Of a stretch of DNA of 57,879 nt, positions 29,068 to 40,857 are shown piece by piece. Made by a program: the position numbers and the translations under genes. The stretch covers positions 1 through 57,879 of the forward strand of contig DATIGE010000075.1 of the NCBI GenBank assembly GCA_035454885.1, read 5' to 3'. The notes beneath the pieces are model-generated. The model worked only from the letters and a program-made list of their open reading frames with translations. It did no database searches and was not told where the DNA came from. This DNA comes from a bacterium. Its GTDB lineage: Bacteria > UBA10199 > JACPAL01 > GCA-016699445. How positions within the stretch are numbered: position 1 is the first letter of the stretch; each line of letters starts with the position of its first letter.

Positions 29068-32040
29068 CTACCGAAGCGTCGCCTGGGGAAAATCGGTCTG
29101 ATAGGTCGGCGGCGTTGAACCCCAGACGTGCGCCGCTCCCGTTTTGTCGATGCCCAGAAGGGACTCGATCGCGGCATACGTCCCTTGGAGGACCTGGATC
29201 GCATAGGCCGCGTTGTGAATGCCGAGGCTCCCGTCTCGGACCACGGAGTTGTAGTTCCAAACGGCGCGGCGAAGCACCGGATCCGCCTCGACAAAATTAC
29301 ACTGCTGGTAGTCGTCCCGGGTCTTTCCAACGGGCATCGTGCTAAAGCAGGAGTAGGGCTTGGGAGAGGTCGGTTCGCAGGCGTTTGCGACGCTCGTCGT
29401 GAAGCTCGAACAGCTCCCCGCCCAGGCGATGTCGCCGACGGTTATGAAGCCGCCCCCGCCCTCCGTCGTTCCGGCGGAGGCGTTCAGAGGAGTCGCCGCC
29501 TGATTGACGTTGTCCGTGTCGGCCGCCTTGATCAGATTGGAGAGATTCAGGAGGAGTCCTTTGACCTCGTCCTGGATCCCCTCCACCGCGCCGTCCCCGT
29601 CATAGTCGTCCTGCGCCTCGAGGTTGAATTCGGTGAGGCCATCGCCGTGGCAGACCTGGCATGCGCTCAGAAGCTCCACTGTCCCGGCGGCCTCCGTCGT
29701 GCCTCCCACGGAGACCTCGTCTTCCGGCACGCCGTGCAAATGCCCGAGCCCATGACCGGTCCGGAGCTTGAGCGCATGGCCTCCCAGGTGCTGGTACCCC
29801 TCCTCATCGGGCGAGGGGCCCTGCGCCATATGGCAAGTCACGCACTTGTTGTTCTCGGCCGGAAGGTTCGGGTCGGCGGCGACACCGGCCAAGGTGAAGG
29901 ATGGGTCCGCATGGAAGGAGTTTTCGGTCAACGCGAGATCCGGCGTTCCGTCCGCATCGAGATCGGCGATCGCCTGCTTCCCTTCCAGCATCGGGGCCTG
30001 CGGCACATAGTGCATGCCCCCCCTCCAATACTGCGACGCCGTCTGATCCACGGTGCTGCAGATCGCTTCCGCGACGCCGTCGTTGTCCGCATCGCAATTC
30101 TTCGCCTGATTGGCGTAGTTGCCGTCGTGGCAGGCATAGCAGACCGCCGCCTTTCCGGCGTTCACCGTCGACCCGTCGATCGCCATCGTCACATCGCCGT
30201 AAAGGCGGAGCTGAAAAGGATTGGTGGCATCGTGGGGATCGTGGCAGGCGACGCACGTGACGCCGGGAAAGACCCCCGGATCATCCGTCACGGGCTTCAA
30301 TCCGGCGAATCCATCGCTGAGAAAATTGTCGAATCCCTTGGCGGTGTGGCAGCGGGTGCATCCCGAGCTGGTCGCCGTCCCCGGCCAGGAGGACTGATAG
30401 CTGCCGCTCCCGTGCTCCACGCCAGCCGTGTTATGTAGGGAGTTCTGCCACTGCTCTTCTTGGATATGGCACTGGCCGCAGACGCCGTACTGGGAAAAGG
30501 AGAAGGAGATCCGGAGCGGATCGCCTTGGTGTTCGCTGCCCGGCCCATGACAGTTCTCGCACTGGACATTCGAGAGCCTCGCCACCGAGGGGAAATTCTG
30601 AACAAAGGCGTCCCAGGTCAGGCCGTCGGCCGGAAATTCAAACCCGATGCGGCCCGTCAGCGGGTCGACGAAATCCCGCGCGAGATCGTCAAACCCAAAG
30701 GCAGCGTCGTCCTTGTTGTAACCGACCGTGTGAAAGGGCCAGAGATACGGCTCGGGAGCGAGCCACGAGTAGAGATCCATCGCATCCTGAAAGACGTGGG
30801 AGTGCTTGGTGCCGCTCCAGCCCGCGACCATGTCTCCGAAAAATTCCGGGGCGGATCGATCGGTTCCGTCATGACACGAGGCGCACTGAGTGGCCTGAGG
30901 CGAATCCTCCGAGATCGTTCCGACTCCGACATAGTCGGCCGCGTTGATCACGAGGGTGCCCGGCACCTTGACCGTCTTGATCGCCGTGGAACCCGCATTT
31001 CCCGTCGTGCTGTCAAAATGGACAAAGTAGATGCCGGGCACGTCGGGGACGAAGCTCGGGGTCTGTGCGTTCGAAGCGGTCGTGCCGGTATCCGCAAAGG
31101 TCGCGCCCGATCCCGGCGCCTGACTCAGGTCCAACGACCAACTCCAGTCCGTGATCGCGCTCCCCTCGTGCCTGGTGGGATCCGATGCGCTCGCGCCGGC
31201 CGCATTGAGGGTGGGACCGGAGAGATAGACCGTGGTTCCGATTCCAACGTTCGACAACCCGCTCGTCGTATGGATCTCCTTGCCGGCGTCCCGCACGAAG
31301 ACCTCGATGGTCCCGGCGCCCGCGACTCCGTTCGCGTCCGTGATCGTCAGCTTGAAGATCATCTTCGTATCGTTTCGAGAGACGCGAAGGGGCTGCCATT
31401 TGTATCGGTCCGTGGCGTTCAGGAAATCGCCGAGTTGGGGCGCGACGAATTCCAACGTCTCACCCGTCGTCGATCCCACGACCGTCGCTCCCGGACCGGA
31501 TACCTGCTCCCACTTGTACGTCAAGTCGCCCGCGCCCGCGATGACGCTCGTCGCCCCGGAAAGCGTGGCCCCCGAGGCCCCCAGGTCGACGACGTATTCC
31601 GTGACCCCGAAGCGCTCCCGCGTGGTGATCGTCGAACCCTCCGGCACGGTGATCGAGACAAGGGAGCTGGTCGCGGTGATCGTGACCGAGTCGGTCGCGG
31701 CGCCGTTATTGATCGAAAGCTCAACGGCGTAGTCGCCCCCCACATCGGGGGTGAAAACGGGCTCAAGGGTCTTGGCATCGGATAGGGACGCGGTCGATCC
31801 TGCAGGCGCGGAGATCAGGGTCCACGTGGCGGACGTGACTCCGGTACTCGCCGAACCATCCAGCGTCACCGGGGCGTTCAGAAGCACCGTCCGATCGGCA
31901 CCGGCGTTCGCCACGACCGTGCCCGCGGTCTCCGTGGCGCAACCGCCTGCGGCTAGACCTGCAACAACACCGGGCAGCCAGGCGCCAAACAGGGAGGCCG
32001 CTACGAAGCAAGAAAAGAGGAATCGCGGTACGCCCGTCAC
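29068..32040 (-). CDS. Octahaem lipoprotein with N-terminal PKD/Ig-like domains (paralogue 2)
   Basis: A 990-residue exported protein. Signal peptide and lipobox AGGC (Cys 34). Residues about 40-365 are beta-sandwich domains; the first has the PKD-type ANAGADRTV...VTLDGSASTG. Eight CxxCH follow from residue 386: CASCH, CENCH, CGQCH, CTRCH, CVACH, CYACH, CVTCH, CQVCH. Asp-rich loops (DADNDGVAEA, DLDADGTPDL, DYDGDGAVEG) look like calcium sites. The C-terminal 180 residues end VWGSTPPTYQTDFPQATLR, nearly identical to the paralogue at 32121. The start is GTG at 32040. Probably a surface-exposed electron-transfer lipoprotein; the acceptor is unknown. Confidence 0.9.
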   Translation of the reverse strand: MTGVPRFLFSCFVAASLFGAWLPGVVAGLAAGGCATETAGTVVANAGADRTVLLNAPVTLDGSASTGVTSATWTLISAPAGSTASLSDAKTLEPVFTPDVGGDYAVELSINNGAATDSVTITATSSLVSITVPEGSTITTRERFGVTEYVVDLGASGATLSGATSVIAGAGDLTYKWEQVSGPGATVVGSTTGETLEFVAPQLGDFLNATDRYKWQPLRVSRNDTKMIFKLTITDANGVAGAGTIEVFVRDAGKEIHTTSGLSNVGIGTTVYLSGPTLNAAGASASDPTRHEGSAITDWSWSLDLSQAPGSGATFADTGTTASNAQTPSFVPDVPGIYFVHFDSTTGNAGSTAIKTVKVPGTLVINAADYVGVGTISEDSPQATQCASCHDGTDRSAPEFFGDMVAGWSGTKHSHVFQDAMDLYSWLAPEPYLWPFHTVGYNKDDAAFGFDDLARDFVDPLTGRIGFEFPADGLTWDAFVQNFPSVARLSNVQCENCHGPGSEHQGDPLRISFSFSQYGVCGQCHIQEEQWQNSLHNTAGVEHGSGSYQSSWPGTATSSGCTRCHTAKGFDNFLSDGFAGLKPVTDDPGVFPGVTCVACHDPHDATNPFQLRLYGDVTMAIDGSTVNAGKAAVCYACHDGNYANQAKNCDADNDGVAEAICSTVDQTASQYWRGGMHYVPQAPMLEGKQAIADLDADGTPDLALTENSFHADPSFTLAGVAADPNLPAENNKCVTCHMAQGPSPDEEGYQHLGGHALKLRTGHGLGHLHGVPEDEVSVGGTTEAAGTVELLSACQVCHGDGLTEFNLEAQDDYDGDGAVEGIQDEVKGLLLNLSNLIKAADTDNVNQAATPLNASAGTTEGGGGFITVGDIAWAGSCSSFTTSVANACEPTSPKPYSCFSTMPVGKTRDDYQQCNFVEADPVLRRAVWNYNSVVRDGSLGIHNAAYAIQVLQGTYAAIESLLGIDKTGAAHVWGSTPPTYQTDFPQATLR

Positions 32041-32120: not shown

Positions 32121-35100
32121 CTATCTGAGCGTCGCCAGCGGGAAGTCGGTCTGGTAGGTCGGTACGGTCGATCCCCAGACCTTTGCTTCAAATTCGGGGG
32201 CAAGTCCAGTCGCCGTGTTGCCGGGTGTCTTCAAGTGCACGCCCGCCTTCTTCGCGATGAAGGCGTAGGTCCCCTGGAGCATCCGGAGCTCATAACCAGC
32301 GTTGTGGATCCCCAAGCTCTCGCCGATGACGATCATGTTGTGATTCCAGATCGCCCGCTTGAGCCAGTTCGGCGCCTGGAGGAAGTTGCAGGTGCGGTAA
32401 CCCAGATTGGCCTTGCTGGTGGTATCGATGAAGATCGGCTTGGTGATCAGACCGTAAGCTCCGGCGGCATCGCAGTCCTTGCCGCCCTTGGGCATCGCAT
32501 CCGTGGCGCCTAGGTATCCGACGCTTGAGACATTGATGGTTCCGTCCCACTTGGCGTAAGTGCCTGTTCTTACATACGCCGTCGTACATTTTTTTGTCAC
32601 TCCATCGCAGATCCCTGTCACGCCAGTGACCGACGTTCCGCAATCCGCATCCACCTTACAGGCACCGAGGGAAAATGTATCCGTGTAGTTCGGAACGACG
32701 GCATTGACCGCGCCGTTCACGCTGGCGAACTGAATGATGCCGGTGAGGTTGATCAGCAACCCCTTCTCCTCGTCCTGGATCCCCTCCTGAACGCCATCGC
32801 CGTCGTAGTCCCCGCGGGCCAGGCGATTGTAACTCGTCAGCTTCGGCCCGTGGCAGGGCTGGCAGGCGTTCTTGACGTTCTGGATTTCCTGCAATTCCGG
32901 CGCGCTCGTCGTCGGTGTCATGTGGAAGGCATGGCCGCCGACCAGTCCGGATCCCTCTTCGGTCTCCTCGGGGGTCTCGGCCATGTGGCAGGTGACGCAC
33001 TTGTTGCTCTGGGTTTCTCCGGGTTTTATGAAGAGGTCTCCGGAGTGATAAGAGTTCGTCGTTGCATCGACCACGATATCCTCGGTGCCGTCCGCGTCGA
33101 CATCCGTAAAGCCCAGCTTCCCTTGAAGGATGCCGGCCTGTGCCACATCGTGGAAGCCGTTGCCCACGTAGTTCGTCGCCGTCTTATCCCAGGTATCGCA
33201 CGTCTGACCGAAGTCACCGGTGTAGTCTTCGATACACCGGCTCTCGAGATACTCCCGGCTCCCGACGTGGCATTCGAAACAGATGGCGGCCTTTCCGGCG
33301 TTGACGGTCTCCTTGGCGCCGTCCACGAACAACGCCCCTCCCTGGCCGTCCGCCACGGCTCCGGCGATCATCGCCGGCTTCATGAAGGTGATCTCGCCCT
33401 CCACGCGGAGGTGGTCGTCATTGGTCGCATCGTGGGGATCGTGGCAGGCCAAACACGTCACCGATGGATACGCCTTGTTGTGCGTCGACGCGGTCAACGA
33501 GATATCCCCGCCGGCCGCGATGGCGGCGGGCAGGTTGTCGACGCCGCCGTTTTCGAGATAGGTCAGGAAGCCCTCGGTGGTGTGGCACTTGGAGCAGGCC
33601 TTTTCGACCGGCCAGTCGTAGTTGACGTGTCCGCTCGTTTCGTTGTGCTTCGAGACGTTCCACTGATCCTCTTGATGGTGACACTGGCCGCAGGTTCCCG
33701 CGTCTTCGGATCGGCCGATCCCGACGGGATCGCCGCTGAAGTGCCGGCTCCCCGGACCGTGACAGTTTTCACACTGAACGTTCGCGAGCTTGGCGACGGA
33801 CGGATGACTCCCGACGAAATCCGCGTAGCTCAAGCCTCCGCCGGCCGGGAAGGCGAATCCCTCGGCGGCCATCAGGTCATCAAAGCCGTCGTTGTCCGCA
33901 TCCAGGTTGAATCCGACCGTATGATACTGAACGTCCGGGACGAGTCCGTCATAGCCCGGCAGACTGAGTTCGAAGATATGGGCGTGCCTCGTGCCGTCCC
34001 ACTCCCCGACGAGGTCTCCGTAGCCCTTGCCAGACTTGTCGGTCGTCCCGTGGCATTCCCCGCACTCGGGCCTCAAGGGCGTCCCGCCCGTGATCGTGCC
34101 GACGCCGGCATACGTGCCGACGTTGATGACGATGGTCCCCGGCGTGTAGGTCACTGGGATGACGGCGTCCGTGTTCTTATACGAACCCAGGGTGGGTGGG
34201 GTCTTCGCATAGACGAGGGCAGTCCCGGCGAGCGGGGGTACTTTGCTCGTATCCAGCGTCGGACAATCCGTATTGACCGGGCAGTAGGTGACCCGATACA
34301 CGCCCGGGAGGTCAGGAACGAAATTCGGCATCTGGGCCGTCGACGTCAACGACCCGCTGTCCGTAAAGACCGCCGCCGAGCCCGGGGCGTCGGTCAGGTC
34401 CAACGTCCATTTCCAGCCCGTGTACTTGATTGAATTGGAGATTTGCGTCGCCCCCGACAGATAGATCTTCTGACCCAGCGGGGCGTTCGGAAGTCCGCTC
34501 TGGGTATGAATCCATTCCCCCGCATCCTCGACATCGATCGCGACCGACGCCGCTGGCACGCCGTCGAGCGTCAAACGGAAGACCATCGTGGTGTCGTCGC
34601 GCGAGATGGGCAGGATCTGCCATTTCATCTTGTCGCTCCGATTTTGGAGGTCCGACATGAGAGGGGCCGTGAAGCTCAGCACGGCCGATGAGGGATCCCC
34701 GATCGTCACGGGAGGTCCGGAGACCTGTTCCCACAGGTAGGTTGTGGCCGGGATGTCTTTCAAAGTCAGGCCGGAGACCTCGCTCGTTGCGGCGGATAAC
34801 ATGGCGCAAGAAGCCCCCAAGTCGACGACGTACAAGGTCTCTCCCAGACGGGTCTCCTCCCGGATGCAGGATCCCTCCGGGATGGTGAAATTCGCGGAGA
34901 CGCTCACCGCGTTTATGACCACATCGTCGTTTAAGGCGGGATCGCCGTTGATCGTCAGCCTCGCCGTGTAGGCGCCGACCACATCGGGGGTGAAGCTGGG
35001 TGAGACCGTCGTGTCGTCGGAAAGGGCCGCCGCGGACCCGCTGGGTTTGCTTTCAAGGATCCATTGGTAGGACGTCACGCCGGTCGACGCCGATCCGTCG

Positions 35101-35327
35101 AGGGTCACCAAGGTCTTGTTGAGGACTGTCTGGTCCGGACCCGCGTTGGCGACGCCCGTTTCGCCGCCGCCTCCGCCGCCTCCACCGCCGCCGCCTCCCC
35201 CTCCCGCGTCCGTCTTCGCGCCCCCGCACCCTCCAAGGACCGTCAGTCCGGAGAGCGCCGGGATCGAGAGGGCTCCCCAAATAGCCAAGACAATCCCGAA
35301 CCTTAACGTCACTCTTGATATCTTCAT
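32121..35327 (-). CDS. Octahaem lipoprotein with poly-Gly linker and PKD/Ig-like domains (paralogue 1)
   Basis: A 1068-residue paralogue of the next gene. Signal peptide with lipobox LGGC (Cys 34), then a run of 14 Gly, then a PKD domain (ANAGPDQTV...VTLDGSASTG) and further beta-sandwich domains to about residue 410. Eight CxxCH: CGECH, CENCH, CGQCH, CSKCH, CLACH, CFECH, CVTCH, CQPCH, at spacings matching the paralogue. Asp-rich loops (DADNDGFDD, DVDADGTED, DYDGDGVQEG) recur. The end is VWGSTVPTYQTDFPLATLR. The long Gly run could be a flexible tether letting the haem part leave the membrane. A promoter-type region with the dyad at 35415 precedes it. Confidence 0.9.
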   Translation of the reverse strand: MKISRVTLRFGIVLAIWGALSIPALSGLTVLGGCGGAKTDAGGGGGGGGGGGGGGETGVANAGPDQTVLNKTLVTLDGSASTGVTSYQWILESKPSGSAAALSDDTTVSPSFTPDVVGAYTARLTINGDPALNDDVVINAVSVSANFTIPEGSCIREETRLGETLYVVDLGASCAMLSAATSEVSGLTLKDIPATTYLWEQVSGPPVTIGDPSSAVLSFTAPLMSDLQNRSDKMKWQILPISRDDTTMVFRLTLDGVPAASVAIDVEDAGEWIHTQSGLPNAPLGQKIYLSGATQISNSIKYTGWKWTLDLTDAPGSAAVFTDSGSLTSTAQMPNFVPDLPGVYRVTYCPVNTDCPTLDTSKVPPLAGTALVYAKTPPTLGSYKNTDAVIPVTYTPGTIVINVGTYAGVGTITGGTPLRPECGECHGTTDKSGKGYGDLVGEWDGTRHAHIFELSLPGYDGLVPDVQYHTVGFNLDADNDGFDDLMAAEGFAFPAGGGLSYADFVGSHPSVAKLANVQCENCHGPGSRHFSGDPVGIGRSEDAGTCGQCHHQEDQWNVSKHNETSGHVNYDWPVEKACSKCHTTEGFLTYLENGGVDNLPAAIAAGGDISLTASTHNKAYPSVTCLACHDPHDATNDDHLRVEGEITFMKPAMIAGAVADGQGGALFVDGAKETVNAGKAAICFECHVGSREYLESRCIEDYTGDFGQTCDTWDKTATNYVGNGFHDVAQAGILQGKLGFTDVDADGTEDIVVDATTNSYHSGDLFIKPGETQSNKCVTCHMAETPEETEEGSGLVGGHAFHMTPTTSAPELQEIQNVKNACQPCHGPKLTSYNRLARGDYDGDGVQEGIQDEEKGLLINLTGIIQFASVNGAVNAVVPNYTDTFSLGACKVDADCGTSVTGVTGICDGVTKKCTTAYVRTGTYAKWDGTINVSSVGYLGATDAMPKGGKDCDAAGAYGLITKPIFIDTTSKANLGYRTCNFLQAPNWLKRAIWNHNMIVIGESLGIHNAGYELRMLQGTYAFIAKKAGVHLKTPGNTATGLAPEFEAKVWGSTVPTYQTDFPLATLR

Positions 35328-35446: not shown

Positions 35447-36154
35447 CTATTGCGTGTGGCAGACCGTGCACATCATTCCGTTGTCCGGATGCCGGAGTGG
35501 GGTGTGGCAGCTCCGGCAATCGGCGCTCGGCCCGTGCAGGGCGTTGGTCGGCCGCTTGGGAGTCTTCTCATGCGTCGGCGTCGACCGGTGGCACACGTTG
35601 CATGCCTGAGCCCCCACGGACTCTACGGGGAAATGGCACGTCAGACAATGCTCGTTCGTGGGGCTCCCCCACCCCGCCGTGTGGCTCTGAGGCTCGGTCC
35701 GGGAATGGCATCGCTCGCAAAAATCGGGCCCCTTGTGACAGACGGCGCACTGGCTCCGGTCCAATCCCACCATTCCGCCATGGCCCTTGAGCCTCCAAAA
35801 TTCGTTATGATTCTCAGGGGGTTCCTGCTGGTGGCACTTCACGCACTGGGATTCCTGGTGGCAGAGGTAGCAAACCCCCTGATTCCGGAAACCGTACTTC
35901 TTCCAGAGGAAACTCCCGTGCTCCTTGGTCCAGTTGGCGTCATGGCTCTTGGGCCTCGTCTTGGTGGTGCGGCCATCGTGGCAGTCCGAGCACTTCGTGT
36001 CCGCGTCGATGTCCTTATGATCCGCGGCCCACGGGGCGACGAGGTCCTTCGAGACGTCCCCCCATGTGATGTCCCGGTTGCATTGCTTGTTCGCCATCAG
36101 CAACGGCATCAGCAACAGCAATCCGAGGAGCGGTCTTGTCTTCAGAAATCCCAT
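35447..36154 (-). CDS. Nonahaem periplasmic c-type cytochrome
   Basis: A 235-residue exported cytochrome with nine CxxCH: CSDCH, CYLCH, CVKCH, CAVCH, CERCH, CLTCH, CNVCH, CRSCH, CTVCH. The signal peptide probably ends after LLMA; the first Cys (KQC) is not a lipobox. Many extra His suggest bis-His ligation. The dense haem packing (one per about 24 residues) resembles periplasmic shuttles and the haem subunits placed inside porin conduits. The gene overlaps the end of the NrfD::barrel gene by 13 bases, so it belongs to the same operon, and its product is the natural candidate to pass electrons to or through the barrel (inference). Confidence 0.9.
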   Translation of the reverse strand: MGFLKTRPLLGLLLLMPLLMANKQCNRDITWGDVSKDLVAPWAADHKDIDADTKCSDCHDGRTTKTRPKSHDANWTKEHGSFLWKKYGFRNQGVCYLCHQESQCVKCHQQEPPENHNEFWRLKGHGGMVGLDRSQCAVCHKGPDFCERCHSRTEPQSHTAGWGSPTNEHCLTCHFPVESVGAQACNVCHRSTPTHEKTPKRPTNALHGPSADCRSCHTPLRHPDNGMMCTVCHTQ

Positions 36155-38736
36155 ACGAGCCTAACCCTCCCGGAGTGAAACCCGTTGATCCTGTTCTTCT
36201 CGAATTCGTAACCCGCCTTCAGCTTAAGATCCTTGCGGATGCGCCCCTCGATTTCTCCGAAATATGTGCGCACGTCGCTGGATTCATCGCCCGTGAAGAG
36301 ATTGAAGCGGTACAAGTAGAAGGCCGTCCCCGCGCCGACCACCAACCTCTTTTTCATGAATTCCTGGTTAACCGAAAATGAGAGCCCGAAATAGTTGTTT
36401 TTCAGCGTATTGTCACGCCCGCGGTAATAATCGGCCGTGAGCGTCGACGACAGGCCCTTGGCGAGGAAGCCCCGCGTCGTGAACGAACCGTAGGCCTTCG
36501 CGAAACCATGATTGAACGCGCTGGCGACCTGGTTGTGATCCAGGAGGCGCATCCCTCCGCCGACGACGAGGCCGAATTTCTTGCCGAAGCCCTTGTAGAT
36601 CTGGGCCATCGCCTCCGTATACGGCTGGTAGGTCCCGGCGAACGAGAAGGGATCCAGTTCGTTCACGCGAAAATCATAGGCCTCGAGGAGGCGGTGGGCG
36701 GTCACCGTCAGCTTCAAGTCCTGCTTGGGGAAAGAGGTCGACGATCCGAAGTCCAGGTCGCGAAGCTGGTCGGTGAAAGCGGTCACACGGCTGTACAACT
36801 CCCAGTTGGGCGTGATGTTGAGCCAGGCGGCGCCCCCGAAGAGGGTATCATCGAGGTTGCCCTGAAAGATCCGGAACGCGGAGACCTTGTCCCTCAGGTG
36901 AACCCCGCTGAACCGGAACCGCAGGCGGGCGATCGGCGTCCACTGGAGGGCCCCTCCCGCCGTCCAGTCGCCGGGGTCGAAGCCGAACTGGTTTTCATAC
37001 AAATGGACCGGAACGCCCCCGAAGGCGGAGACGACGAATCCCGCGTAGGGCTTGGTCTCCACCGAAAGCCCGTCGAAATGAAGCCCCTCCAACTCATAGA
37101 GATGCTGCCGGCCGGCGCGGATGTTGCTGAAGAGGCCGACCTTGTTGACGTCCAGGTATCCGTAATAGAAGCGGCCGATCGCGTGGCTGCCGAAGGTGTC
37201 GTAGATGCTGCGGTACGGACTGCCGGAATCCTGCTTGTTCAGATCGACGATCACGCCCCCCTGGATCGAGCCTGAAAATCGGTTGATGACCGGATCGCCG
37301 AAATTGAGGGTGACGAGGGTCTCGGCCAGGTGGTCGCTGAACGCCCCCGTGGTCTTCCAGTGGTAATCCTGCATGATCCAGCCGCTGATATGAAAGGGGG
37401 TCTTCGCCTCGGCCGTGCTTCCCGCACCGAGCAGGGCCGCGAGCAAGACCAGCGCCGTGACGACCGGTTTCGTAAGGCCCGACGCCCCTCCTCCCCCGCT
37501 CTTGGCCGGATGCTCCTTGATCGCCCTGCCGTAGTGCACGTCCCCCCTCTCGATGGGGAGAGCCGCCTTCATCAAGAGCGTAAAGGAAAGAAAACCAAAG
37601 GCCCAGATGCCGGCGCAGACCCTGACTTCCACCCAGGACGGGGTGTATTCGATGATATCGCCCAGGGGGCTCGGCACGAAACCGGGAACCACCATCCCCA
37701 TGCCTTTTTCGATCCAAATGCCGACGACGGCGAAGACGGACGCGATCTGGATGAGGCGATCGTGACTGCTGAGCTTGTGGCTCGCAAAGATAATGGTCGC
37801 CACCAGATTCAACCCGATGGACAGCCACGTATAAGGAACGAGCATGTGCTTTCCCTTCAAGCCAAAAAATAGGTATCGGGCGGAGGCGGATTCCAGGGCC
37901 CCGGTATAAAATTCCTTAAAGACCTCGCTTGCAAAGAGAAAGAGGTTGAGGATGAGGGCGAGCGCAACGATGCGTATGAGCACACGAATCACCGTCCTTG
38001 GGACCTCGAAGAGATCCCGCCATTCAATGATGTAGAGGACGAGGAGCATGAGCGAGGGACCGGCGATGAACGACGAGGTCAAGAATCGAGGGGCCATGAC
38101 GGCCGAGTTCCAATACTGCCGGCTTCCCAGACCGCTGAAGAGAAAGGCCGTCACCGGAATGGCGGCCCAAAAGATCGAAAGGTAGATCAAAGGCTTGAAG
38201 AACATGCCCCTGGGTTCTTCCTTTATATATTTTTGGTAGAGGAGATAAAAGGGAATATAGAGCGCCAGGAGCAAGTAGCCGGACAGCAGGAGGACGTCCC
38301 ACGACAGGATCGACATCGGCCAGTTCACGCGTCCCACCCCGGGCATGAGATGCCAGAACCGGTCGGGCCTGCCGATATCCACGACCACGAAGAGCATGCC
38401 CATGCTCACCGCGCACACCGCAAAAAGCTCCCCGATGATGGTGATCTGCTTGACCAGTTCGATCCGGTAAAAATAGGCGGGGATCATCAGCAGGATCGCC
38501 GAGGCCGCGACCCCGACGATGTAGGTGAAATTTGCGATATAGGCCCCCCAAGCGACTTGGTCGGAGAGATTGGAGACGATCAACCCGTGCTTGACCTGTT
38601 CGGCGTAGGCGAAGCCGCCCATGATGACGATCGCCGTCAAGACAACGAGCCAGATCCAATAGAGCGCACTCCCCTTGAGGGCCTGCGCGACCATCTCCTT
38701 CCAAAACCGGAAATACGTTTTCATAGGCACGCTCAA
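36142..38736 (-). CDS. NrfD-like quinol dehydrogenase membrane domain fused to an outer-membrane beta-barrel
   Basis: One uninterrupted frame of 864 codons holds two proteins that normally live in different membranes. Residues 1-405 are NrfD/PsrC-like: eight to ten hydrophobic helices with IGRPDRFWHLM and PMSILSWD. Then come a Gly-rich joint (411-420) and a perfect Sec signal peptide (about 421-444, hydrophobic core VVTALVLLAALLGAG, cleavage AEA-K). Residues 445-864 alternate in porin style, with many aromatic girdle residues and a C-terminal Phe (RVRLVWDF), the usual BAM signal. Signal peptidase cleavage at the internal site would yield an inner-membrane protein plus a barrel. The start is TTG 38736, or ATG 38724. 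It follows the ferredoxin gene without a gap. Confidence 0.85.
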   Translation of the reverse strand: MSVPMKTYFRFWKEMVAQALKGSALYWIWLVVLTAIVIMGGFAYAEQVKHGLIVSNLSDQVAWGAYIANFTYIVGVAASAILLMIPAYFYRIELVKQITIIGELFAVCAVSMGMLFVVVDIGRPDRFWHLMPGVGRVNWPMSILSWDVLLLSGYLLLALYIPFYLLYQKYIKEEPRGMFFKPLIYLSIFWAAIPVTAFLFSGLGSRQYWNSAVMAPRFLTSSFIAGPSLMLLVLYIIEWRDLFEVPRTVIRVLIRIVALALILNLFLFASEVFKEFYTGALESASARYLFFGLKGKHMLVPYTWLSIGLNLVATIIFASHKLSSHDRLIQIASVFAVVGIWIEKGMGMVVPGFVPSPLGDIIEYTPSWVEVRVCAGIWAFGFLSFTLLMKAALPIERGDVHYGRAIKEHPAKSGGGGASGLTKPVVTALVLLAALLGAGSTAEAKTPFHISGWIMQDYHWKTTGAFSDHLAETLVTLNFGDPVINRFSGSIQGGVIVDLNKQDSGSPYRSIYDTFGSHAIGRFYYGYLDVNKVGLFSNIRAGRQHLYELEGLHFDGLSVETKPYAGFVVSAFGGVPVHLYENQFGFDPGDWTAGGALQWTPIARLRFRFSGVHLRDKVSAFRIFQGNLDDTLFGGAAWLNITPNWELYSRVTAFTDQLRDLDFGSSTSFPKQDLKLTVTAHRLLEAYDFRVNELDPFSFAGTYQPYTEAMAQIYKGFGKKFGLVVGGGMRLLDHNQVASAFNHGFAKAYGSFTTRGFLAKGLSSTLTADYYRGRDNTLKNNYFGLSFSVNQEFMKKRLVVGAGTAFYLYRFNLFTGDESSDVRTYFGEIEGRIRKDLKLKAGYEFEKNRINGFHSGRVRLVWDF
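37405..37476 (-). other. Internal signal peptide at the NrfD/barrel joint
   Basis: Encodes residues 421-444: a Lys, a hydrophobic core of about 15 residues and a small-residue cleavage site (AEA). Its presence in the middle of the frame is what makes a two-product reading plausible. Confidence 0.75.
37471..37497 (-). promoter_or_regulatory. Buried Shine-Dalgarno-like run before the barrel part
   Basis: The four-glycine joint is encoded by a purine run containing GGAGGAGG (minus strand, within 37485-37497), a strong ribosome-binding sequence. No ATG, GTG or TTG follows at the right distance; ACG at 37471-37473 is the closest weak candidate. It could be a relic of a once separate porin gene or a working internal entry site. 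Confidence 0.45.
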
Positions 38737-39792
38737 TCAATCAAAGAAGTAATAGAATTGAGGATCCGTCCCCACTTCCTCCTTCAGGACAAAGACGCGT
38801 TTCGAGCTCAGGATGTTCCGGACCTCGCTGTTCGGGTCCTTGAGGTTGCCGAACTTTCTCGCACCCGTCGGGCAGGCCTCCAAGCACGCCGGATATTTCC
38901 CGACGCGCGTGCGGTGCAGGCAAAACGTGCACTTCTCCATCACCCCTTTGGGACGAATGCGGTTCGACAGGTACGACTGGTTGGGGTTGATCTCGTCCGC
39001 CGGGATGGACGGCTCGGTGAAATTGAAATGCCGTGCTTCGTAAGGGCAGGCCGCCTGACAGTAGCGGCAACCGATGCACCAGTTGTAGTCGATGACGACG
39101 ATGCCGTCCGCTTCCTTCCAAGTCGCCTCCACGGGGCAGGCCTTGACGCAGGGCGGATTGCGGCACTGATGACACTGGACCGGAAGATAATATTTGTCTT
39201 TTTGAGGAACCAAATCCGGATTGTAGTAACGGTCGGATTTGTTCAGATCGAAGCTCCCGGCCTCCATCTCCAAGACCGTGATGTATTGAATAGCCGGGTC
39301 GCGCGATTGGTTGTTTTCCTTCACGCAAGCCTCGACGCACTTTCGGTTCCCGTTGCACTTGGAGAGGTTGAGAAAGTAGGCGAATTCGACGCCCGGGATC
39401 GGCTGCGGGTCCGCAATCGTGACGTCGACGCCGTGCTTCTCCTTCGTCTCCTTTTCGAGCCGCCGGAAGACGCGTTCCTTGTCCTCGGGGGTCAGCTCCT
39501 TGTAGTGCTTCTGGAAGAACTCGGCGAACGAGAAGGCCTCGGCGGGCTTCGGAGAGGCGATGACCGCGGCGCCGGCGACCGTGCCCGCCGCCTTGAGAAA
39601 CGTCCGGCGCGAGAGCCGTTTCCCGAAAAAGCGGTCCACCAAGGCATGGATCCTCTTTTTCGACCTCTCGAGATTCACGATTTCGGAATTCCCGTGTTCG
39701 GGCCGGCTCAGTTTCTTGAAGAAACGCCCGATCAATTCACGCAATGTTTTCGCCGACTTCTCGCGATCGGCCGATGAGATCGATGGGTTCAT
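38737..39792 (-). CDS. HybA-like Tat-exported [4Fe-4S] ferredoxin subunit
   Basis: A 351-residue periplasmic iron-sulfur protein that would link the NrfD-like quinol domain to haem proteins. The Tat signal SRRTFLK is at residues 61-67, after an unusually long 60-residue charged N-region. Four cluster sites are seen: CNGNRKCVEAC, CHQCRNPPCVKAC, CIGCRYCQAAC and CTFC-x11-CLEAC. The first site has Asn where the second Cys is expected, leaving three Cys plus possible Asn ligation, so a [3Fe-4S] or altered cluster is likely there. The ATG at 39792 overlaps the tetrahaem stop in ATGA. The end abuts the NrfD::barrel start. Confidence 0.92.
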   Translation of the reverse strand: MNPSISSADREKSAKTLRELIGRFFKKLSRPEHGNSEIVNLERSKKRIHALVDRFFGKRLSRRTFLKAAGTVAGAAVIASPKPAEAFSFAEFFQKHYKELTPEDKERVFRRLEKETKEKHGVDVTIADPQPIPGVEFAYFLNLSKCNGNRKCVEACVKENNQSRDPAIQYITVLEMEAGSFDLNKSDRYYNPDLVPQKDKYYLPVQCHQCRNPPCVKACPVEATWKEADGIVVIDYNWCIGCRYCQAACPYEARHFNFTEPSIPADEINPNQSYLSNRIRPKGVMEKCTFCLHRTRVGKYPACLEACPTGARKFGNLKDPNSEVRNILSSKRVFVLKEEVGTDPQFYYFFD

Positions 39793-40352
39793 CGGGCGCC
39801 TCCTTCCCCTCGGGACATCCAGGACGGCTTCGGGGGCGGCGGCAGGGGCTTCATCGGTTTGAAGGCGGTATCGTGGGAATTGTGGCACTGGACGCAAAGC
39901 TCGATCTTCCCCTCTCCGTTCCAAAGTCCGCTCCGGCGTCCGTGGATATGGGCTTTCCAATCCCGCAATTGGGGGCCGTGGCACTGTCCGCACAATCGAT
40001 GCGATTCATTGAATCCGATCGTCTCGCCCGTATAGAGCCTGAGCTGGTTGTACTGTCCCGGGTTGTGGCAGTTATGGCACCACCAGGTCGGATCCATCTC
40101 CACGCGCTGCGTGGGATGGATGGACTTGATGTTGAGATGCTCTTGGGTCAGAGTTCTCTTCTCGGTGTTGAAATCCTCAGGGGCGGAGTGACATTCGTCA
40201 CACGGATACATTTCAAGCTGAGTGGTTCGTTTGTCGACCTTGTCCAAACCCTCATCGGCATGGGCGGCGACGTTCCCCCACGCCCCGAAGCAAAAGAACA
40301 TGGCGGCAGCGGAGCTTGCGATCCAGAATCGTTTTGCACACGCGCGTCGCAT
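39789..40352 (-). CDS. Tetrahaem c-type cytochrome of the quinol-oxidising complex
   Basis: A 187-residue exported protein: signal peptide (cleavage near AHA-DE), four haem motifs (CDECH, CHNCH, CGQCH, CVQCH) and a Pro-rich tail (KPLPPPPKPS). The order multihaem cytochrome, HybA-like ferredoxin, NrfD-like membrane protein is that of membrane-bound quinone:cytochrome complexes such as Qrc, Cbc and alternative complex III. The gene is first in this set, 103 bases after the monohaem gene end. The protein most likely receives electrons from the ferredoxin and passes them into the periplasm. Confidence 0.9.
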   Translation of the reverse strand: MRRACAKRFWIASSAAAMFFCFGAWGNVAAHADEGLDKVDKRTTQLEMYPCDECHSAPEDFNTEKRTLTQEHLNIKSIHPTQRVEMDPTWWCHNCHNPGQYNQLRLYTGETIGFNESHRLCGQCHGPQLRDWKAHIHGRRSGLWNGEGKIELCVQCHNSHDTAFKPMKPLPPPPKPSWMSRGEGGAR

Positions 40353-40455: not shown

Positions 40456-40857
40456 CTACTTCCCCTGCAGGAACTGAATCAGAGTTTTCAAATCCTCAGG
40501 GGAACCGGTAAACGCCTTCTTGTGTTTCACGTCTTTACCCTCGCGAGTGATTGTCCCTTCCTTCTTGAGGAACTTCTCCAGGACAGCCACGTCGGTGCAT
40601 TCAGGCCCGAGTTTTGACAGGTCGGGCGGCGTGACCTTTTCCGCCGCTTCGCCCGCCTCCTCGCCTGAATCCCCTCCGGACGCCGGCAATTTCTCGATGC
40701 CTTCGGATTTTATCGTATGGCACTTGTTGCACTTGTTATCGAGAAAGAGCTTCTTGCCGGCGGGGTTGCCGGCCGCCATGCCGGAACGAACCGGCAGCAG
40801 CAGCGCGCAGGCCAAGACCAGTGCGAACAGCGATACGACCACGGTGCTCTTTTTCAT
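40456..40857 (-). CDS. Monohaem c-type cytochrome
   Basis: A 133-residue class I-like cytochrome with a signal peptide (cleavage near MAA-GN), one haem site (CNKCH, residue about 43) and a C-terminal helix typical of small cytochromes (EDLKTLIQFLQGK). A distal Met is not obvious. An acidic Glu/Ala-rich insertion separates the haem site from the remainder. Good ribosome-binding site (AAGGAGAGG) before ATG 40857. The upstream region holds a CRP/FNR-like dyad (40935). It may be a soluble electron carrier of the conduit. Confidence 0.88.
   Translation of the reverse strand: MKKSTVVVSLFALVLACALLLPVRSGMAAGNPAGKKLFLDNKCNKCHTIKSEGIEKLPASGGDSGEEAGEAAEKVTPPDLSKLGPECTDVAVLEKFLKKEGTITREGKDVKHKKAFTGSPEDLKTLIQFLQGK

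Follow-up and report, generated by a model that had tools for sequence, protein, structure and literature searches.

Known electron-transfer systems and the gene cluster

DsrP and ActC are NrfD-like subunits of ten helices, for which quinone-site residues have been listed and ActC His247 and DsrP1 His176 have been assigned to a proton half-channel on the cytoplasmic side (Calisto and Pereira 2021, PMC8076601). In Melioribacter and MBNT15, an Fe-S/NrfD module in which a multiheme cytochrome replaces the molybdenum subunit has been proposed to serve iron reduction (PMC9386147). Porin-cytochrome conduits (Omb/Oma/Omc of Geobacter, OetABI in PMC10553843, and Mtr) pair a barrel gene with a periplasmic multiheme cytochrome, followed by surface multiheme lipoproteins. 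Parts of each of these arrangements recur in the locus described here. FbcH of Bradyrhizobium, the rhizobial cytochrome b/c1, is reportedly made as one precursor that is split by signal peptidase. No precursor known to us from the literature gives rise to both an inner-membrane and an outer-membrane member of a single electron chain.

The window, the whole stretch of DNA that was analysed, comprises 57,879 nucleotides of contig DATIGE010000075.1 (assembly GCA_035454885.1). On its minus strand, one reading frame joining an NrfD-like domain to a predicted outer-membrane barrel lies among cytochrome genes, in the order monoheme c, tetraheme c, DsrO-like Fe-S protein, NrfD-barrel, 9-heme c, two 8-heme PKD-domain lipoproteins, and then CcmE and CcmF/H, which serve heme attachment. 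The genes on either side of the fused frame are as follows.

40456 to 40857, minus strand: monoheme cytochrome c (PF00034)
39789 to 40352, minus strand: tetraheme cytochrome c (four CXXCH, Cytochrome_C7)
38737 to 39993, minus strand: DsrO-like 4Fe-4S protein with Tat signal (Fer4 domains; open frame, true start further in)
35447 to 36154, minus strand: 9-heme cytochrome c, presumed barrel partner (nine CXXCH)
32121 to 35327, minus strand: 8-heme PKD-domain surface lipoprotein cytochrome (domain and heme-motif matches)
29068 to 32040, minus strand: second 8-heme PKD-domain surface lipoprotein cytochrome (domain and heme-motif matches)

Judged by its gene content, the cluster is a complete route for electrons from quinol to the cell surface, with the full gene set in one place. 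A 13-nt overlap joins the barrel stop to the start of the 9-heme gene; most class relatives share it, and at the distant loci checked an 11- to 14-heme gene adjoins the barrel; cytochrome neighbours of the barrel family carry 8 to 14 hemes. As this pairing is retained among relatives, barrel and multiheme cytochrome form a conserved unit, as in porin-cytochrome conduits, and with the two 8-heme lipoproteins the gene set of such a conduit is present. The likeness lies at the level of gene arrangement, and the barrel differs from those of Omb, OetABI and Mtr in its length (about 420 residues), in having no Pfam match and in being fused to an inner-membrane subunit.

The module of Fe-S protein, NrfD and multiheme cytochrome resembles that of Melioribacter and MBNT15, for which, however, no barrel fusion is reported in PMC9386147. 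The Fe-S gene scored 184 bits with NCBIfam DsrO, below the cut-off of 200. The DsrMKJOP sulfite-reduction complex occurs together with dissimilatory sulfite reductase, DsrAB; dsrA gave no match over cut-off in the genome, so the DsrOP-like pair stands outside sulfite reduction here.

Three smaller features of the neighbouring genes are recorded. In the Fe-S partner, the motif for the first cluster, CNGNRKCVEAC, is without its second Cys; L019 and L020 have the same variant, and other phyla show comparable losses (CNGSR, CQGYR, CKGVR). The 9-heme cytochrome has, just past its hydrophobic leader, a motif [AG]N[KQR]xC that is conserved in most relatives and is not a standard lipobox. In the surface cytochrome at 32121 to 35327, a run of 14 Gly directly follows the lipoprotein Cys region.

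One frame with two halves

The 864-codon frame that joins the NrfD and barrel halves is real. It is open from TTG at 38736 to the stop at 36142, and its likely start is the ATG at codon 5 (38724), because NrfD proteins of relatives begin M(R/K)xY. The earlier note had placed an uninterrupted frame at 36142 to 38736; these coordinates are correct for a gene on the minus strand, and the homology of both halves falls in the same frame. Third-position GC is 80 to 82% across the joint, matching both halves. The parts of the frame are as follows.

37543 to 38724, minus strand: NrfD/DsrP-like quinol-interacting membrane domain, residues 5-398, ten transmembrane helices, N-in/C-in (PF03916, NCBIfam DsrP, positive-inside count, AF2/Foldseek)
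37474 to 37542, minus strand: joint, residues 399-421, cytoplasmic side, Gly4 linker (NrfD of relatives ends here; other two frames without stop)
37537 to 37539, minus strand: in-frame GTG400, with GAGAGG 6 nt upstream (sequence)
37485 to 37497, minus strand: Shine-Dalgarno-like GGGGGAGGAGGGG, translated Gly-Gly-Gly-Gly (sequence)
37471 to 37473, minus strand: ACG codon 422, one transition short of ATG (sequence)
37405 to 37473, minus strand: internal signal peptide, residues 422-444, with a signal peptidase I site between AEA and K445 (hydrophobic peak; position shared with relatives)
36145 to 37404, minus strand: predicted mature barrel domain, residues 445-864 (family distribution, identity to class relatives, beta alternation)

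The N-terminal half is NrfD-like, as had been proposed. Residues 5-398 match PF03916 (Pfam, E 6e-32), and this half scores 352.6 bits with NCBIfam DsrP (cut-off 350). AlphaFold with 25 relatives gave ten confident helices, and Foldseek matched the half to the alternative complex III subunit ActC (6btm_C, E 1.4e-12). Loop Lys and Arg number 20 versus 10 on the two sides, which by the positive-inside count places both ends of the NrfD half in the cytoplasm. The protein is like DsrP and ActC in sequence, in its ten helices, in its quinone-site residues and in having its Fe-S partner in the next gene; it differs in its C-terminal barrel, in the lack of dsrA in the genome and in a cluster that leads to surface cytochromes.

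The barrel half

Residues 445-864 are very probably an outer-membrane barrel, to judge from the features of an alignment of ten family members. Hydrophobicity alternates with a period of two (z 3.1 versus shuffles) and helical periodicity is absent; some 20 peaks are strand-like, and W[DNS]F is conserved at the C-terminus. The half is 44 to 62% identical to its class relatives. Neither Pfam nor NCBIfam gave a match to residues 445-864 of this member. Pfam over all ten members gave weak single matches only, the best being PF14905 (OMP_b-brl_3, E 0.004) in one member, and the family profile found no match among solved structures. AlphaFold of the barrel alone, from a single sequence, reached a pLDDT of 29, and as the alignment used to fold the fusion contained NrfD relatives only, the barrel half of that model is uninformative. 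The porin barrel suggested in the earlier note is thus well supported by the alternation, the terminal aromatic residue and the signal peptide, and unproven as a fold. The frame directly links a DsrP-type quinol dehydrogenase to a barrel family for which there is no Pfam model.

Distribution of the fusion

Among the genomes searched, the fusion is seen in one only, on a draft-assembly contig of a single strain. The barrel family is present in 27 of 385 genomes, with separate frames of 410 to 565 aa, fragments aside; within the class it occurs in 9 of 46 genomes and has its own frame in all except the fused genome. The fused frame is the longest of 57 matches above the DsrP cut-off, and none of the other 56 continues into a barrel. 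The next-longest DsrP-type frame (G074, 752 aa) is extended upstream only and ends 9 residues past the domain. Long stop-to-stop NrfD frames (L033, L064, L034, L047, L086 and G074) were considered as further fusions and rejected, as the additional stretch precedes the domain and resembles unused frame. A scan of viral contigs found no relative and a search of the literature found no barrel-NrfD fusion. The earlier note had called for a search for homologues with the same fusion; the genomes searched gave none, and the barrel is a separate gene in all relatives, the distribution that the note had named as counting against its reading.

Genome G009 has the same order of genes (tetraheme, Fe-S, NrfD, barrel, 9-heme, surface cytochrome) with NrfD and barrel unfused and 115 bp apart, which is likely to be the ancestral state. 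The fused genome also has, on C13 (L015:8400-11359), a second DsrP-type NrfD, which is unfused, has its own tetraheme c and Fe-S genes and has no barrel nearby.

The joint

C-termini of the NrfD proteins of relatives fall around residues 400-420 of the fused protein. The joint sequence, AAGAGCGGGGGAGGAGGGGCGTCGGGCCTTACGAAACCG, is a Shine-Dalgarno-like run read as Gly4 and then ACG-AAA-CCG, and its translation includes SGGGGASGLTKPVV. Given the Shine-Dalgarno-like run before the signal peptide, the likeliest reading of the Gly-rich joint is a ribosome-binding site that is now translated, GGGGGAGGAGGGG being a probable relic of that of the barrel gene. ACG422 may possibly be the lost start codon of this gene, for an ATG in its place would begin MKPVVTALVLLAALLGAGSTAEA, a standard signal peptide.

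The internal signal peptide, TKPVVTALVLLAALLGAGSTAEA followed by K445, has its hydrophobic peak at residues 424-442. It coincides with the N-terminal signal peptides of the separate relatives, about 10 residues ahead of the first conserved strand-like motif. The Gly-rich joint and internal Sec signal described in the earlier note are therefore present, as Gly4, as the AEA-K445 site and in the position of relatives' signals.

A sequencing or assembly error could give the same appearance if one wrong base concealed a stop in the joint (codon 415 or 416, for instance) in what would be two overlapping genes with the barrel starting from about GTG400. Were GTG400 the start, one substitution to a stop would suffice, and ten codons in 401-440 lie one substitution from a stop; in addition, relatives all carry two genes and the NrfD paralogue in the same genome is of comparable end length. 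However, substitution errors are uncommon in a consensus, and two would be needed if the barrel started at the more natural codon 422. A frameshift at the G-run was discounted as a way of obtaining two genes: the other two frames have no stop between codon 389 and at least codon 494, so an indel in the joint cannot restore two normal genes. Such an error is unlikely.

It is also unlikely that, in a truly fused frame, the working barrel comes mostly from internal initiation, with the fusion product a by-product. GTG400, preceded by GAGAGG at 6 nt, might serve as an internal start from which a free barrel precursor is made, and GGAGGAGG lies about 13 nt ahead of the non-standard ACG422. Nevertheless, a G-rich gene commonly contains purine runs, and ACG starts are rare and weak.

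Fate of the fused chain

The reading preferred here is that neighbouring NrfD and barrel genes fused in this lineage and that the precursor is split by signal peptidase (probability about 0.6). In this proposal, loss of the NrfD stop let translation run on through the ribosome-binding site and start of the barrel gene, giving the Gly4 linker. The fused chain would insert into the inner membrane as ten NrfD helices with their end in the cytoplasm, and the former signal peptide of the barrel would become an eleventh segment. As the C-terminus of NrfD is in the cytoplasm, the internal signal peptide has the orientation that signal peptidase I requires: with NrfD N-in/C-in, it would insert N-in/C-out and place the AEA-K445 site on the periplasmic side. 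Signal peptidase I would then cut after Ala444, NrfD keeping a short hydrophobic tail, and the freed barrel would pass to the Bam machinery and house the 9-heme cytochrome. Electrons would flow from quinol through NrfD, the Fe-S protein, the tetraheme and monoheme cytochromes c and the 9-heme cytochrome in the barrel to the 8-heme surface cytochromes.

Splitting into two proteins, as in FbcH, is the most likely fate of the chain. The layout is of that type, with a polytopic quinol enzyme ending in the cytoplasm, an internal signal peptide and an exported electron-transfer partner in one frame. It differs in that the partner released would be an outer-membrane barrel and that cleavage is, in this case, predicted. 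We see a slightly better than even chance that a single precursor, split in this way, supplies an electron-export pathway with its inner-membrane quinol dehydrogenase and its outer-membrane barrel in a strict 1:1 ratio.

The earlier note had offered two outcomes, cleavage into two proteins made 1:1 or a chain spanning the envelope. Cleavage is the likelier and spanning is nearly excluded. An uncut chain lying in both membranes as a new trans-envelope conduit would be in keeping with the frame itself, but between the signal helix with its cleavage site and the first strand-like segment there are only about 10 residues (under 4 nm), which cannot bridge the periplasm, so the chain is either cut or non-functional as a two-membrane protein. 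The good AEA cleavage site and the separately exported proteins of relatives also argue against such a conduit, which is highly improbable. Rather than that new conduit, the surrounding genes make up an electron-export cluster of porin-cytochrome type, whose members are normally separate and are fused in one genome. The locus is thus probably a natural-looking, single-genome fusion of normally separate electron-export parts, split by signal peptidase. If expressed as read, it offers a naturally occurring case in which to ask whether a signal peptide within the chain, placed after a ten-helix membrane protein, is able to deliver an outer-membrane barrel.

Quinone site and proton path of the fused NrfD

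D120, S142 and D147 are invariant in alignment A3, the fused copy included, and by our reading of spacing and alignment would be the quinone-site residues. The fused NrfD has no counterpart of ActC His247, a near-invariant residue that is the His of an S-I-H-T motif; in its place there is a two-residue gap (window positions 38140-38175, around residues 188-199). This His is kept in 65 of 67 NrfD sequences, being absent only from the fused copy and from the barrel-adjacent copy of G009 (L018:9901-11118), which has Leu at this position. Both barrel-linked copies therefore lack one and the same residue of the proton path, either inherited in this state from a shared ancestor or lost in two separate events; a test of orthology between them gave a p-AU of 0.21. 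The loss may reflect altered energy coupling or decay.

Decay would fit a fused NrfD that is a degenerating or repurposed copy, serving mainly as a leader for the barrel while the C13 paralogue oxidizes quinol. The fused copy sits on a long branch (0.91), and 11 of 88 near-invariant columns are altered, a second His among them, as well as the equivalent of ActC His247 and DsrP1 His176; the intact, unfused paralogue with its own Fe-S and tetraheme genes and the loss of the same His in G009 point the same way. Against this, D120, S142, D147 and all ten helices are retained, and the partner Fe-S gene is intact and adjoining. Degeneration or repurposing of this kind, which is compatible with cleavage, is unlikely.

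Another unusual NrfD/DsrP-like frame was found in an Akkermansiaceae MAG (L084:5920-7713). Some 160 residues inserted between its helices resemble a cyclic-nucleotide-binding domain and could be a sensor domain within a quinol enzyme.
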